NCBI GenBank assembly: GCA_017549805.1
Contig: JAFYNJ010000008.1
Coordinates: forward strand, 186,001 to 250,000
Direction of reading: 5' to 3'
Source: Bacteroidales bacterium
GTDB taxonomy: Bacteria > Bacteroidota > Bacteroidia > Bacteroidales > F082
DNA: 64,000 bases
The translations under genes were made by a program, and so were the position numbers. The first letter of the stretch is position 1. Each line of letters starts with the position of its first letter. The notes under the pieces are model-generated. The model was not told the DNA's origin and made no database searches. It saw nothing but the letters and a program-made list of their open reading frames with translations. Shown in pieces: positions 32,508 to 37,945 of the stretch.

Positions 32508-33611
32508 TTAATTAACATCGGCGCGAGCCATTGAATCTTTGTAGTATTTCTGATTGATGAACACATCCTCCTTGTAGGGATTGATATGACGCTTCTTGGA
32601 TACTGCAATGATATAGCCAAGAGCGACAACGTTCACTACCAGCGCAAGTGCGCTGATCACCATCATCATGGTGGGATTGGCTGCCACGATGGAAGGATCT
32701 ACTGTAGTTCCCACAATGCCGTCAACCGCAGCCTGTCCGCCTGCAGCATACAGTTTCTCAACGGTAGCGACACCTTCGGGATAGAGGACGGGAAGCGTAG
32801 CCCAGCTGTACCACTGGCGACCGTCTTTGAAGGTCTCCTGGAAGAGCGGGAACACCTGAGCGAACATGCACCAGATGGCCAGGGTATTGGCACGGTTCTG
32901 AATCCAGCCACCACGATTCCACAGCAAAGCAGCAATGGTCGGGGCCAGCAGCAGAGCGACACCACAGTACCAGCTGTGCGTAGGCAGGCAGTTGTAGGTG
33001 TAAGCGAAGTTCCAGATGTCGTAAATGACGATATAAACCCAGGTCATGTCGGCCCAGATCATATCTTTCTTGTCCTTGGAAGCATACACATTCCACCAGG
33101 CAGTCATACAGAAGATGTTGAGCAAACCAGCCACGCCATTGAAGACATTGTGCCAGCCACCATATTGCCAGACACCTTCAGAGGTGAGCCACCACTTGTT
33201 CCATCCCATCGCGGCGCTCTCAAAGTCGGAGGCGCATGCAATCAGAATGTTAATGGCCACGATGACAAACGGGAAAGGCTTGAACCAGTGCTTGGCACCG
33301 ATGCCCCACTTGTACTTGATCATCATAAAGCCGATACATCCGGCTGTGGCCGCATAGAGCTTGGCATAATGGAACCAGCCTTGCATATAGACATGGGTCT
33401 GGTTTTCCAATGCCCACTGGGCACCACTCCTGACACCGAAAAAGATGGCGAGGAAGTAAACGGTGAGAGCCAGCGGAACGACCAAGAAGGTAAAGATACC
33501 GCCGAACTTGGTGCGACGGGCAAACTCGTTAAGTAAGATCAGGCCTGCGAGGACAACGAGCATCATTCCCCACTGAGGCAGCGCATGAGCGCCATAGACT
33601 TGGAAAAACAT
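32508..33611 (-). CDS. DUF5692-type integral membrane protein
   Basis: 367 residues, about nine to ten hydrophobic helices with many Trp and aromatic residues (for example GWNKWWLTSEGVWQYGGWHN), ending in a short cytoplasmic tail. I recognise it as resembling DUF5692 family proteins; no function is known for these. It is the last membrane gene of the run hypB - Fe-S flavoprotein - hypA - small membrane protein - this gene, all on the minus strand with short gaps, which suggests a joint role. No signature of a transporter family is visible. Confidence 0.75.
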   Translation of the reverse strand: MFFQVYGAHALPQWGMMLVVLAGLILLNEFARRTKFGGIFTFLVVPLALTVYFLAIFFGVRSGAQWALENQTHVYMQGWFHYAKLYAATAGCIGFMMIKYKWGIGAKHWFKPFPFVIVAINILIACASDFESAAMGWNKWWLTSEGVWQYGGWHNVFNGVAGLLNIFCMTAWWNVYASKDKKDMIWADMTWVYIVIYDIWNFAYTYNCLPTHSWYCGVALLLAPTIAALLWNRGGWIQNRANTLAIWCMFAQVFPLFQETFKDGRQWYSWATLPVLYPEGVATVEKLYAAGGQAAVDGIVGTTVDPSIVAANPTMMMVISALALVVNVVALGYIIAVSKKRHINPYKEDVFINQKYYKDSMARADVN

Positions 33612-33612
33612 A

Positions 33613-33652
33613 TTGTTTAGAATTTAGAAGTAAGAATTCAGAAGTAAGAAGA
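33613..33652. repeat. 7-bp tandem repeat before the DUF5692 gene
   Basis: AGAATTT/AGAAGTA/AGAATTC/AGAAGTA/AGAAGAT fill the gap between the two membrane genes; the sense strand reads ACTTCTN. Confidence 0.85.
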
Positions 33653-33997
33653 TTATTGGGCGACTGGTGCTTTTTTACGTTCTTTTAATAAAGCATAAAC
33701 CACCCATACTGCAGTAATCACCAACGACATGGGCACGCCAACGGTAAGCATCTCACGAAGCATGACAGCACCGCCGCCAGCCTCTTCAAGGGCAGTAAAG
33801 AACGGGAAACGCCAGGTGAGTTCCCCATTGATGATATGGTCCACAACCAACATCACCGAACCACCCCAGAGCATCTTCTCCAAGACCGGGATGTGACGTT
33901 TGAGCGCCGAGTGGCTGTTTTCTATGGATTTTTCATTGACTTTGCGATACGTGCTGGTGACCATCGCCTGTGCCAGTGGAACGATAAAGCATGACAT
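33653..33997 (-). CDS. small membrane protein of the hypA/hypB cluster
   Basis: 114 residues, not recognised. Three hydrophobic stretches: the N-terminus (SCFIVPLAQAMVT), the middle (LEKMLWGGSVMLVVDHIING) and the C-terminus (VPMSLVITAVWVVYALL), with a basic tail. Flanked by hypA and the DUF5692 gene, with 7-bp repeats on both sides. Could be a small subunit partnering the DUF5692 protein (inference from position only). Confidence 0.7.
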   Translation of the reverse strand: MSCFIVPLAQAMVTSTYRKVNEKSIENSHSALKRHIPVLEKMLWGGSVMLVVDHIINGELTWRFPFFTALEEAGGGAVMLREMLTVGVPMSLVITAVWVVYALLKERKKAPVAQ

Positions 33998-34004
33998 TTT
34001 TTTT

Positions 34005-34036
34005 AGAATTTAGAATTCAGAAGTAAGAATTAAGAA
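34005..34036. repeat. 7-bp tandem repeat before the small membrane gene
   Basis: AGAATTT/AGAATTC/AGAAGTA/AGAATTA/AGAATTA between hypA and the 114-residue membrane protein. Confidence 0.82.
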
Positions 34037-34378
34037 TTATACTATTATACTGTTGATTTCGACCTCGTTGCCGCGAAGCAGCCATGTGTTGTTACTGTTA
34101 CAATGCGGACAGGTTTTGCCGAACTTCACCGTCTCGTATTCCTGCTTGCAGCTGTCGCACCAAGTCACCGCAGGAAAGACGTTGACCTTCAACTCACATC
34201 CTTTGAGCAAGGCTTCCTTGTCGGCCGCCCAACGCCAGCAGTCGGTGAGCAGATGCGGGACCACCGTCGATACTTCGCCGATGTCCATCACCACGCTGGA
34301 GACATGCTCCACATGGTGCTCCTCCGCCACTGCTTTGACATCTTTGATGATATAGAATACGATACCGAGTTCGTGCAT
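34037..34378 (-). CDS. hypA: nickel metallochaperone HypA
   Basis: 113 residues. The N-terminal MHELGIV supplies the His2 nickel ligand. The zinc site is CDSC...CPHC (near 74-96), and VVMDIGEVSTVVP is the family beta strand. HypA hands nickel, with HypB, to NiFe-hydrogenase large subunits or, in some bacteria, urease. Its ATG overlaps the stop of the upstream flavoprotein (TAATG), indicating translational coupling. No hydrogenase or urease gene is in the window. An in-frame extension upstream lies in the flavoprotein gene and was rejected. Confidence 0.93.
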   Translation of the reverse strand: MHELGIVFYIIKDVKAVAEEHHVEHVSSVVMDIGEVSTVVPHLLTDCWRWAADKEALLKGCELKVNVFPAVTWCDSCKQEYETVKFGKTCPHCNSNNTWLLRGNEVEINSIIV

Positions 34379-37236
34379 TACTTTTTCTTTCCAAAGATTA
34401 TTTTTCCAGTGCGTTTGAACATATAAGGCAAGATGGATCCGAACTTGTCCTCGGAGACCACCATGTTGCTGGCCTCGGGATGTTCGCGATAGAGATGAAT
34501 GGCATCGAAGCCGCACTTGGTAGTGCAGATGCCACAACCGATGCATCGGTTCTCATCGACGATGGAGGCACCGCATGAGAGGCAACGGGCGGTTTCCTTG
34601 CGCACCTGTTCCTCTGATAGCGTCACCATGTATTCGCTGAACGGGTTTTCCTTTTCAGCAACACCTTCCACCTGACGGGAGCCGTTATCGTACGATTCAA
34701 CCAGGATGTCATCCTTGTCAAGTTCGATGAAGTCACGGCGGTTGCGGCCTATGGTCATGTGGCCGTGCTGCACATAGCGGTGCAACGATTCGGCAGCTTC
34801 CTTGCCAGCAGCTATGGCATCGATGGCAAACTTGGGACCCGTAAACACGTCACCACCCACAAAGATGTCCTCTTCTGCCGTCTGGTAAGTCAGCTTGTCG
34901 GCCACGGGATACACACCCCTAATGAATTCCACCTTGGTGTCCTTCAGCAAGTCCTTCAAGACCACAGTCTGTCCAATGGCGAAAATGACCATGTCCGCAT
35001 CAAGCGTAATCAGCTCGTTCTCGTCATATTGAGGAGCAAAGCGGTGTTCTTCATCATACACCGAAGTGCATTTCTTGAAAACAATACCTTTTACCTTTCC
35101 ACTTTCACCTATCACCTCCTTCGGTCCCCATCCTGGATTGATCACCACGCCGTCCTCGCGGGCTTCGCGGCGCTCTTCAAGGGAGGCAGGCATGATGTCT
35201 TCCGTCTCCAGCGAAAGCATGGTAACCGAAGCAGCGCCGCTCCGCTTCGCTACGCGGGCCGCATCGATGGCCACATTGCCGCCACCTACTACAACCACTT
35301 TTTTAGGTGAGAGTTGAGAGGTGAGAGTTGAGAGGTGGCCATTCGGACCACAATTGTTTTCACGCAGGAAGTCGATGGCCGTGACGGTGCCTTCCAGTGT
35401 CTCGCCGGGGATGCCAGGCAGCTTGCCTCCTTGACAGCCGATGGCCACGTAGAAGCCCTTGTAGCCTTGCTCACGAAGCTGTTGGATGGTGACATCCTTG
35501 CCCACTTCCACGCCTGTCCTTATCTCTACGCCAATCTCACGCATGATGTCAATCTCGGCCTTGATGACATCTTTATCCAGCTTATAGGATGGGATGCCGT
35601 AACGCAACATGCCGCCAGGCTCGTCATTCTTTTCGAATACCGTAGGTTTGTAGCCCATCGTGGCGAGGTAATAGGCACAGCTCAATCCCGCAGGACCACC
35701 GCCGATGATGGCAATCTTCTCTTCCCAGCGCTCCTGCACATTGGAACAGATATTCACCTCCGGCACGAAACGGGTTTCAGCCTTCAGGTCTTGTTCCGCA
35801 ATAAATTTCTTGACAGCATCGATGGCGATGGGCTGGTCGATGGTGCCACGAGTGCAGGCATCCTCACAACGGCGGTTGCACACGCGACCGCACACTGCCG
35901 GGAAGGGATTCTCCCGCTTGATGAGTTCCAACGCCTCGGTATATTTGCCTTCGGCAGCTTTCTTCAAATAGCCTTGAACGGCGATATGGGCAGGACAGGC
36001 GGTCTTGCAAGGGGCCGTACCCGTCGGGTAGCAGTTGATACGGTTCTTGTCACGATAATCCTCGTCCCATTTGTGCTTGCCCCACTTTCTGGCATCGGGC
36101 AACTCTTGCTTGGGATAGGTCTGCTCGCCATGTTTGGTACATAGTTTCTGACCCAACCTAACGGCACCGGCGGGACAATACTCCACGCAACGGCCGCAAG
36201 CCACACAATTCTTGGGATCCACTTTTGCCACGTAGGCACTACGAGACAAATTCGGCGTATTAAACAACTGCGATGTTCTTAAAGCATTGCAGATCTTTAC
36301 ATTGCAATTACAAATAGCGAAAATCTTGCCTTCTCCGTCGATGTTGGTGACTTGATGCACAAAGCCGTGGTCCTCGGCCTTTTTCAAGATGGCCATGGCT
36401 TCGTCGTATGTGATGTAATGTCCACGGCCAGTCTCAGCGCAATAGTCGGCCATATCGCCGACCCCGATGCACCAGTCACGGTAATCGTCGGCGCAGCCTT
36501 CGTCCATCTTCTTGCGACCATACCGGCACGAGCAGATACCTACGCCAATATGTCCCTCATAACGCTTGAGCCAATAGGAGATGTGTTCGATGTCCATCGT
36601 CTGGTTCTCCATCGAAATGGCTTTCTCCACGGGAATCACGTGCATGCCGATGCCTGCGCCGCCCATGGGAATCATCGGGGTAATCTTCTCCAGCGGAAGG
36701 AAGGTCATCCTTTCAAAGAACATGGCCAGCTCGGGATGGCGGTCCATCAGGTCGGTGTTCATGTTGGTGTATTCCGCTGAACCAGGCACGAAGAGCGGCA
36801 CCCAGTATTCGCGATCCTTGCGTTCGTAGGTGGTTCCCGGAACCGGTCCATCCTTGGTGTACTTGTCGCCGTAGTCGTATTCAAGCATCCCGAAATAGGC
36901 GAGTTTGTCCAGCAGTTCGTCAAACTCCTCGTCGGTTTCCGTATAGTGCTTCTTGTGGTTCCATTCCACCAGCAGCGAATAGGGCCGATGTTCGCGCACG
37001 GTCAGGAACTTCTTGGAGATCACGTCAAGCAACAAGTCAAGCGAAGCCTCACGCGTCTTGGCATCCATCTCGTCCTCGAAGATGCAAGCCAAGCCCCAGT
37101 ATTCGGGAGCATCGGTGGTCATTTTCAGTTTGCCTGGAACACGGTCGGTGATTTTGCGGACCAGCTTCAGCAGTTTCGGGTTCGGGTTTTTGTCGCCTTT
37201 ATGCTTGGGGACAAACTTGGTGGACATTTCGGGCAT
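34378..37236 (-). CDS. large Fe-S flavoprotein: winged-helix-like/4Fe-4S N-terminus fused to a GltD-like NAD(P)H oxidoreductase
   Basis: 952 residues from MPEMSTKFVPKH. Residues 1-~300 form a helical domain with the cysteine cluster ICSCRYGRKK and a CNCNVKIC motif. A ferredoxin site CVACGRCVEYCPAGA is near 345. The GltD Fe-S domain (CKTACPAH, CGRVCNRRCEDAC) leads to the FAD motif AIIGGGPAGLSCAYYL near 505, NAD(P) motif VVVVGGGNVAIDAARVA near 645, and a C-terminal CLSCGAS / CIGCGICTTKC site. This is an electron-transfer enzyme related to the small subunit of glutamate synthase but with no large subunit nearby. Between the two nucleotide-binding domains, nine residues (LSTLTSQLS) are encoded by a 7-bp tandem repeat. 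Sits between hypB and hypA. Confidence 0.88.
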   Translation of the reverse strand: MPEMSTKFVPKHKGDKNPNPKLLKLVRKITDRVPGKLKMTTDAPEYWGLACIFEDEMDAKTREASLDLLLDVISKKFLTVREHRPYSLLVEWNHKKHYTETDEEFDELLDKLAYFGMLEYDYGDKYTKDGPVPGTTYERKDREYWVPLFVPGSAEYTNMNTDLMDRHPELAMFFERMTFLPLEKITPMIPMGGAGIGMHVIPVEKAISMENQTMDIEHISYWLKRYEGHIGVGICSCRYGRKKMDEGCADDYRDWCIGVGDMADYCAETGRGHYITYDEAMAILKKAEDHGFVHQVTNIDGEGKIFAICNCNVKICNALRTSQLFNTPNLSRSAYVAKVDPKNCVACGRCVEYCPAGAVRLGQKLCTKHGEQTYPKQELPDARKWGKHKWDEDYRDKNRINCYPTGTAPCKTACPAHIAVQGYLKKAAEGKYTEALELIKRENPFPAVCGRVCNRRCEDACTRGTIDQPIAIDAVKKFIAEQDLKAETRFVPEVNICSNVQERWEEKIAIIGGGPAGLSCAYYLATMGYKPTVFEKNDEPGGMLRYGIPSYKLDKDVIKAEIDIMREIGVEIRTGVEVGKDVTIQQLREQGYKGFYVAIGCQGGKLPGIPGETLEGTVTAIDFLRENNCGPNGHLSTLTSQLSPKKVVVVGGGNVAIDAARVAKRSGAASVTMLSLETEDIMPASLEERREAREDGVVINPGWGPKEVIGESGKVKGIVFKKCTSVYDEEHRFAPQYDENELITLDADMVIFAIGQTVVLKDLLKDTKVEFIRGVYPVADKLTYQTAEEDIFVGGDVFTGPKFAIDAIAAGKEAAESLHRYVQHGHMTIGRNRRDFIELDKDDILVESYDNGSRQVEGVAEKENPFSEYMVTLSEEQVRKETARCLSCGASIVDENRCIGCGICTTKCGFDAIHLYREHPEASNMVVSEDKFGSILPYMFKRTGKIIFGKKK
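35307..35338. repeat. 7-bp tandem repeat inside the flavoprotein CDS
   Basis: GAGAGTT/GAGAGGT/GAGAGTT/GAGAGGT in frame, encoding LSTLTSQLS just before the VVVVGGGNVA strand. The same units as the intergenic repeats. Confidence 0.85.
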
Positions 37237-37239
37237 CGT

Positions 37240-37261
37240 ATGGTAATTTAGAATTATGAAT
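37240..37261. repeat. short 7-bp repeat between hypB and the flavoprotein gene
   Basis: Units AGAATTA/TGAATTT/AGAATTT, overlapping the 3' end of hypB (its last codons, NSKF, come from it). Confidence 0.65.
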
Positions 37262-37945
37262 TTAGAATTTAGAGTTTTTCCACAAAGTGATTTCATTGAC
37301 AAGCCATTCGGCAAAGGCATCAATGCCCTCACCGGTCTTGGCGGAGATAGGAATGACTTGAGCCTTGGGATTGCGCTGGTGGATGTATTCCTTGCAACGT
37401 TCCAAGTCAAAGTCGAAATAGGGCATCACATCGATCTTGTTAACGATTACCAAATCGCACACAGTAAACATCAATGGATATTTCAACGGTTTGTCATCAC
37501 CCTCAGGTACGGAGAGGATCATGGTGTTGCGTACGGCACCGGTATCAAATTCGGCAGGACAAACCAGATTGCCAACGTTTTCAAGGATGACAAGGTCCAA
37601 ATTGTCAAGATCCAGATGGTCGAGCCCTTGGCGGGTCATCTCTGCATCGAGATGGCACATGCCGCCCGTATGCAGTTGGATGGCAGGCACGCCGGTGACC
37701 ACGTTGATCCTGACGGCATCCACAGCACCGTCAATATCCGCTTCCATCACAGCGACACGAACCTTGTCCTTGATACGGTTAATAGTCTGTATCAAAGTGG
37801 TGGTCTTGCCGCTCCCAGGAGCCGACATGAGGTTAAGGAGATATACTCCTTTGTTTTTCAATTCCTTACGTAAAGAATCAGCATCCTTCTCGTTTTCGGC
37901 AAAGACACTCTTCTTGATTTCTATGATTTTAACTTCATCCATCAT
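37262..37945 (-). CDS. hypB: nickel-insertion GTPase HypB
   Basis: 227 residues. SIMIBI-class GTPase: P-loop LMSAPGSGKTTT near 40, the GGMCHLDA nickel/zinc site near 95, ENVGNLVCPAEFD (switch/metal Cys), and the guanine-specificity motif VNKIDVMP. It lacks the His-rich N-terminus of some HypB proteins. Delivers Ni with HypA. Starts MMDEVK (37945 or 37942); a -7 box lies 4 nt upstream, so the transcript would be almost leaderless. First gene of the minus-strand run to the DUF5692 gene. Confidence 0.94.
   Translation of the reverse strand: MMDEVKIIEIKKSVFAENEKDADSLRKELKNKGVYLLNLMSAPGSGKTTTLIQTINRIKDKVRVAVMEADIDGAVDAVRINVVTGVPAIQLHTGGMCHLDAEMTRQGLDHLDLDNLDLVILENVGNLVCPAEFDTGAVRNTMILSVPEGDDKPLKYPLMFTVCDLVIVNKIDVMPYFDFDLERCKEYIHQRNPKAQVIPISAKTGEGIDAFAEWLVNEITLWKNSKF

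Follow-up and report, generated by a model that had tools for sequence, protein, structure and literature searches.

Which enzyme do the nickel chaperones HypA and HypB supply in a genome that appears to encode neither a [NiFe]-hydrogenase nor a urease? This question is raised by a five-gene locus of a Bacteroidales bacterium (assembly GCA_017549805.1), which lies within a 64,000-nucleotide stretch of contig JAFYNJ010000008.1, referred to here as the window. On the minus strand, the genes for HypB, a large iron-sulfur (Fe-S) flavoprotein, HypA, a small protein of 114 amino acids (aa), and a DUF5692-type protein follow each other with gaps of 25, -1, 39, and 41 bases. All five genes of the initial annotation are present with short gaps. 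The one-base overlap that it described was also borne out, as the hypA ATG begins on the last base of the TAA stop codon of the flavoprotein gene, with position 34378 shared between both. We propose that an oxidoreductase of the IsrA type ("clade 9") is probably encoded here, along with nickel chaperones dedicated to it and accessory membrane-type proteins.

In their textbook role, the chaperones would supply a hydrogenase or urease encoded elsewhere, which was the alternative offered by the initial annotation. Among 198 Bacteroidales genomes sampled across the order, 61 of the 67 genomes with HypA have a NiFe match (E < 1e-10); the others are G000, which carries this cluster, G011, G035, G156, G173, and G180. 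Four genomes of the same sample have a NiFe match and no HypA match (G026, G033, G069, and G150). The Fisher test values for this association take no account of kinship or linkage. However, the window genome (2.73 Mb in 33 contigs, listed as 100% complete with 7.58% contamination), which contains a single HypA in a genome-wide search, gave no match to the NiFe large subunit (PF00374), HypD, or the urease alpha subunit (PF00449). HypD was searched as a stand-in for HypCDEF, in place of individual searches for HypC, HypE, and HypF. The search was extended to 42 genomes, comprising the window genome and the genomes of 41 of 80 related loci, the other 39 loci lying outside the genome searches; these 80 are the best of at least 581 relatives, found via DUF5692. 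Each of the three families was found in 0 of these 42 genomes, in agreement with the lack of hydrogenase and urease genes noted in the initial annotation. Most of the genomes are metagenome-assembled genomes (MAGs), with completeness not stated for those reached via the loci, so that single gene absences are weak. For the genomes as assembled, these sequence searches exclude a hydrogenase, and with the cluster copies of HypA and HypB also standing apart in phylogenetic trees (see below), a hydrogenase or urease as the client is highly improbable.

Across genomes, HypA accompanies the flavoprotein instead. Eight other Bacteroidales from the order sample with a DUF5692 match were added to the 42 genomes. 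Of the resulting 50 genomes, 38 have HypA and 36 have the N-terminal domain of the flavoprotein, and all 36 also have HypA; both are present in 36 genomes, neither in 12, and HypA alone in 2 (G051 and G042). The latter two have matches to the NiFe large-subunit family as well as HypD, and they account for both positives of the HypD search in 47 genomes. Because the NiFe matches of many genomes are partial (G051, model positions 1 to 69, E 7.8e-13; G042, E 3.2e-15), their designation as hydrogenase-type rests on HypD too. One genome, G202, has two flavoproteins and two HypA proteins, with one cluster complete and the other reaching a contig end (L120 and L121). This co-occurrence across many hydrogenase-free genomes is new here, as are the chaperone trees. 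It also bears on the possibility that the chaperones serve another nickel enzyme, such as lactate racemase (LarA), CO dehydrogenase (CODH/ACS), or glyoxalase I, and that their position in the operon is accidental. The nickel-enzyme searches covered hydrogenase and urease, and a relative of the 114-aa protein is encoded next to a CO dehydrogenase gene (see below). Nevertheless, such a client is unlikely, as HypA is missing exactly where the flavoprotein is missing, the two hydrogenase-type genomes aside, the gene order is kept, and the copy numbers agree in G202.

The chaperones themselves retain the features expected for metal handling. HypB scores 246 bits against TIGR00073 (cut-off, 121.2), and the Cys-His pair and Cys of its G domain (C97-H98 and C129) are invariant in 50 aligned rows, while no N-terminal metal motif was seen in its sequence. 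HypA retains the MHE start and two CxxC motifs in the alignment. The nickel- and zinc-binding roles of these HypA and HypB residues are as given in the sections of PMC10134865 drawn on here. Midpoint-rooted trees were calculated from 28 HypB and 37 HypA rows. The cluster rows (14 HypB, 18 HypA) comprised the copies of the window and of Subdoligranulum plus one in four of the remaining cluster copies, and the comparison rows (14 HypB, 19 HypA) came from 20 fetched stretches. In each tree, a single branch with support of 100/100 (HypB) or 100/99 (HypA) separates the cluster copies, including the Bacillota plasmid copy, from the hydrogenase-linked copies. This grouping across two phyla fits chaperones that were inherited with this operon, and the cluster's chaperones look dedicated to the flavoprotein. 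The same branches are long and separate, and HypA scores 74.4 bits against the hydrogenase equivalog TIGR00100, under its cut-off of 88.1. Both features would suit proteins that deliver zinc, cobalt, or iron, or that assemble an Fe-S site, without any nickel. We consider this reading rather doubtful, since the motifs listed above are all retained.

A precedent for a flavoprotein with a proposed nickel site comes from Acetobacterium wieringae, whose IsrA has been proposed as a putative isoprene reductase linked to nickel chaperones (Kronen et al. 2023, PMC10134865). According to the sections of that paper used for this comparison, isoprene induces the isr operon, IsrA is induced together with HypB and with one of the two HypA proteins in a genome that lacks a [NiFe]-hydrogenase, and the flavoprotein is already named as the proposed nickel target. 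The same sections give the fractions of 988 IsrA homologues with HypA (0.73), HypB (0.56), or DUF5692 (0.40) as a neighbor, and name Bacteroidetes among the carriers of clade 9. In a 2025 announcement, the genes are called a "putative diene reductase cluster" (PMC12509576). The Bacteroidales flavoprotein is similar to IsrA (PMC10134865, PMC9765523, PMC12509576) in its length of about 900 aa, its N-terminal domain, which has no family name and contains two CxC motifs, its Fer4_20 and FAD/NAD(P) domains, and its extra ferredoxin clusters. Similar to the isr operon, hypA and hypB adjoin the flavoprotein gene and [NiFe]-hydrogenase is missing from the genome; similar to the clade 9 homologues with a DUF5692 neighbor, HypA, HypB, and DUF5692 are encoded beside the flavoprotein (PMC10134865). 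Unlike the isr operon, the locus belongs to a Bacteroidales host and contains two additional membrane-type genes, neither of which is listed for isr in those sections. HypA and HypB are also shared with the HypABCDEF maturation system of [NiFe]-hydrogenases, but HypD and the large subunit are absent from all 42 genomes. In this respect, the suggestion of the initial annotation that the cluster concerns a nickel enzyme other than a hydrogenase is supported and is the best reading of the locus, although the same idea has been published for the family. The 114-aa protein, the occurrence of DUF5692 apart from the flavoprotein, and the chaperone trees go beyond the sections of PMC10134865 considered here.

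The flavoprotein begins with a domain of about 340 residues to which a Pfam scan gave no name. This is followed by a ferredoxin cluster, Fer4_20, an FAD/NAD(P) domain, and, at the C terminus, further Cys residues of the ferredoxin type. The Fer4_20 and Pyr_redox_2 core (residues about 400 to 820) is shared with the NfnB/GltD family. Unlike members of that family, the protein is extended by about 400 residues at its N terminus and has ferredoxin Cys residues at its C terminus, and the GltD-type models among the best 25 of 78 matches all score under their own cut-offs. Across 53 aligned rows, the full-length IsrA-type architecture was found, with the N-terminal domain, Fer4_20, Pyr_redox_2, and extra 4Fe-4S clusters. 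In the N-terminal half, seven Cys residues are conserved across these rows, forming two CxC motifs (C235/C237 and C309/C311) in addition to C248, C256, and C316. This differs from cluster V of IsrA, the proposed nickel site, for which six Cys residues are counted in PMC10134865, in the section used here. The seven-Cys site would be the most likely destination of the nickel.

Ten small proteins (352 to 436 aa) of nine other Bacteroidales genomes all retain the seven-Cys module as well; in the one that was scanned, Pfam named only the ferredoxin part. Their last motif has extra Cys residues, reading mostly CNCCxCxC versus CNCNxxxC in the flavoprotein. In addition, H199 and H218 are conserved in the 53 flavoprotein rows, whereas the 10 small proteins have Arg and Asn/Lys/Arg at these positions, respectively. 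This makes both histidines candidate nickel ligands, in a region where the alignment is thin and IsrA itself is outside the comparison. That small ferredoxin-like proteins have the seven-Cys module in common with the flavoprotein and lack the two conserved histidines is a further new observation.

In the mechanism that we propose, the flavoprotein would receive nickel from HypB, a GTPase, and HypA, most likely at its seven-Cys site. Electrons would flow from NAD(P)H via FAD and the ferredoxin clusters to this site, where one C=C bond of a conjugated hydrophobic substrate would be reduced, as suggested by the relative from Acetobacterium. Both membrane-type proteins would be accessory and probably deal with the same membrane-soluble substrate, through delivery, anchoring, or a preceding isomerization.

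This proposal builds on four observations: the gene set, the tie between HypA and the flavoprotein, the lack of hydrogenase, HypD, and urease genes, and chaperones that group separately in the trees. We infer the nickel content, the reaction, the substrate, and the direction of electron flow. Several points weigh against the proposal. The flavoprotein appears to be of the clade 9 kind by its architecture and neighbors, and not by a tree with IsrA. Moreover, the locus differs from the isr operon in having one hypA gene, not two, and no 4Fe-4S ferredoxin gene. Acetobacterium species with homologues at 47 to 49% identity do not reduce isoprene, as stated in the part of PMC10134865 drawn on here, which indicates that substrates differ within the family. 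At least one of the genomes encoding a small seven-Cys protein (G138, listed as 99% complete) gave no HypA match. The module thus extends beyond the nickel link, and its presence by itself is no evidence of nickel. The co-occurrence of HypA with the flavoprotein is partly linkage, as the genes are adjacent, and the related genomes are not independent, their kinship weakening the statistics. The branch to the cluster copies of HypB and HypA is long, with a long-branch warning for the HypB tree. The limited scope of the nickel-enzyme searches, given above, adds to these points.

The initial annotation had tentatively assigned the redox chemistry to the two membrane proteins, which would constitute the nickel enzyme and receive electrons from the flavoprotein. 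In favor of this version, 41 of the 80 loci contain the complete linked set of five genes, and invariant His and acidic residues were found in the alignments of both the DUF5692 and the 114-aa proteins. However, 12 of the 50 genomes have a DUF5692-type gene but neither HypA nor the flavoprotein (six carriers of the locus set and six genomes of the order sample, with one match of the latter six scoring under the cut-off). A lone DUF5692 gene is also found behind a putative TetR-like frame on a plasmid stretch of Latilactobacillus curvatus. DUF5692 stands alone in 19 loci, and the genomes of 13 of these were searched. The trio of hypB, flavoprotein, and hypA is encoded elsewhere in seven of these genomes, and neither HypA nor the flavoprotein was found in the other six. 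In all seven trio genomes, no DUF5692 lies beside the trio in the stretch fetched, with linkage still possible for the two trio contigs that end within about 0.3 to 0.6 kb; three of the seven retain the 114-aa gene. Among the eight further Bacteroidales with a DUF5692-type match (one of them under the cut-off), the flavoprotein was found in none, and the stretches around DUF5692, some of them short, contain none of the other four cluster genes. Furthermore, the Subdoligranulum cluster showed no 114-aa gene, and the isr operon, as described in those sections of PMC10134865, has neither gene.

Whereas DUF5692 is separable, the flavoprotein tracks HypA. This makes DUF5692 a partner and not the sole client of the chaperones, and the membrane pair as the nickel enzyme is unlikely. 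The initial annotation had named two observations that would speak against its idea, namely, a hydrogenase with HypCDEF in every carrier and membrane genes apart from hypA and hypB; a membrane gene was indeed found apart, while the carriers lack hydrogenase and HypD. What stands is thus a nickel enzyme other than a hydrogenase, and what falls is the membrane pair as that enzyme with the flavoprotein only feeding it. The separability of DUF5692 from the flavoprotein is reported here as new.

Stand-alone DUF5692-type genes beside putative TetR-like genes were seen at three positions (L017:10399-10974, L018:10645-11220, and L112:7309-7770), of which L017 was checked with Pfam, and in one locus DUF5692 is split over two frames (L059:1193-2290). 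The DUF5692 protein of the window has nine long helices in a predicted structure of middling quality. On plasmid pRUMAL02 of Ruminococcus albus (L143:4849-7683), cooS is directly followed by the gene for a protein 37% identical to the 114-aa protein, and then by that for a second small protein. The cooS product is CO dehydrogenase, a nickel enzyme. A similar pair of small proteins, distant relatives of the 114-aa protein, is located on a Lachnospira eligens plasmid, with no annotated nickel enzyme within 7 kb. A second link to nickel through the adjacency with cooS, which was considered, is undercut by this copy.

The cluster recurs in a conserved order. With gene presence called by matches of >30 bits, the flavoprotein, hypA, and DUF5692 genes are in the same order in 61 of the 80 loci, an arrangement beyond chance. 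In addition to the loci with all five genes, 9 lack only hypB, 8 lack only the 114-aa gene, 3 contain only the flavoprotein, hypA, and DUF5692 genes, and 19 contain DUF5692 alone. In 12 loci, hypB may be just cut off, as these start inside the flavoprotein gene or at most about 110 bases from it. The full-length flavoprotein was found in 1 of the 198 genomes of the order sample, the window's own, with weak matches in nine others arising through the small proteins. Within the window's family, it was found (E < 1e-100) in 26 of 173 genomes, all of one genus. The source titles of 68 of the 80 loci name RUG, RGIG, deer, or reindeer, and those of 12 do not; we take RUG to stand for rumen uncultured genome. 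This five-gene arrangement of Bacteroidales, mostly from ruminant MAGs, is new here. Outside the order, a Subdoligranulum variabile plasmid keeps the order of hypB, the flavoprotein gene, hypA, and DUF5692; the products are 67%, 64%, 48%, and 61% identical to those of the window, respectively.

A wider metabolic island around the cluster was considered and rejected. When the open reading frames (ORFs) of 81 loci and 9 stretches were clustered, no family beyond the cluster genes and one antisense frame occurred in more than 6 of the 90. The largest flanking family is a GlpC-like Fe-S protein (6 loci), followed by GlpA/B/T-like families (4 to 5 loci), all with putative names. Putative parts of an anaerobic glycerol-3-phosphate dehydrogenase and a GlpT-like transporter flank 4 to 6 of the loci between L031 and L121.

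Two observations bear on the substrate. Homologues of A. woodii and A. fimetarium are encoded near an oleate hydratase gene, and terpenes are named by Kronen et al. as alternative substrates, in the sections of PMC10134865 used here. Taken together, the ruminant sources and the oleate hydratase neighbors suggest that the substrate may be a fatty acid and that DUF5692 may act as an isomerase. In its most specific form, uncultured rumen Bacteroidales would carry out a two-step biohydrogenation, in which DUF5692, as a membrane isomerase, would conjugate the methylene-interrupted double bonds of linoleic or linolenic acid and the nickel flavoprotein would reduce the resulting diene. Such a pathway would explain a lone DUF5692 gene (isomerization only), an isr operon without DUF5692 (substrate already conjugated), and the dominance of ruminant sources. 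In the rumen, linoleic acid is hydrogenated via conjugated intermediates, with the isomerase purified as a membrane protein and the reductase described as an activity, according to the parts of the reviews drawn on. One Butyrivibrio genome paper reports, in the part used here, that no linoleate isomerase gene was found in its strain. The likeness to the linoleate isomerase and conjugated linoleic acid reductase activities of Butyrivibrio (rumen, two-step diene handling, and a membrane-bound isomerase) is one of logic alone.

Against a fatty-acid substrate, no recurrent lipid gene was found beside the cluster in the 90 loci and stretches. In addition, a conjugated-linoleate reductase of Butyrivibrio has reportedly been purified, and its gene is said to have been sequenced in 2007. 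No literature link between the cluster and fatty-acid biohydrogenation was found, in a search that left most subscription journals and bioRxiv preprints outside and is accordingly weak. The words linoleic, rumen, and Butyrivibrio do not occur in the main text of PMC10134865. We give the two-step pathway a small chance.

Should nickel be confirmed in the IsrA-type flavoprotein, a family of nickel enzymes outside the short known list would be present in several phyla of anaerobes, performing plain C=C reduction, and might influence what becomes of unsaturated compounds from the diet in the ruminant gut. If biohydrogenation is the function, the locus would provide a gene for the membrane isomerase as well as a new class of nickel enzyme. 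Given the tie between the dedicated HypA and HypB and the flavoprotein, the involvement of nickel can be tested directly.

Features of the five-gene locus, in coordinates of the window
Feature	Coordinates	Strand	Description
hypB	37945-37262	minus	227 aa, nickel-handling GTPase; TIGR00073; Pfam CobW/HypB, E 1e-20
IsrA-type Fe-S flavoprotein	37236-34378	minus	952 aa; Pyr_redox_2, E 1.3e-29, and Fer4_20 (Pfam)
hypA	34378-34037	minus	113 aa, nickel metallochaperone; Pfam HypA, E 1.4e-30, above cut-off
114-aa small protein gene	33997-33653	minus	Putative membrane-type by sequence; no Pfam family
DUF5692 gene	33611-32508	minus	367 aa; PF18948, E 4.9e-129, 430 bits (cut-off, 27)
Seven-Cys module of flavoprotein	36289-36534	minus	C235, C237, C248, C256, C309, C311, C316; proposed special Fe-S/nickel site
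Repeat-bearing intergenic gaps	33612-33652, 33998-34036, 37237-37261	minus	AATTCT/ACTTCT-type repeats

The hypA translation used in the searches begins at position 34381; it has one extra Val at its start, and its residue numbers are offset by one. At the 5' side, the operon is preceded by a divergent gene, judged from its sequence to encode a putative MATE-type transporter, and a YqeY-like gene (Pfam scan) is located at its 3' side. The AATTCT/ACTTCT-type repeats have 12 matches in the window versus 0.18 expected. Seven of the 12 lie in or overlap three operon gaps (33612-33652, 33998-34036, and 37237-37276), and an eighth lies within the last codons of hypB.

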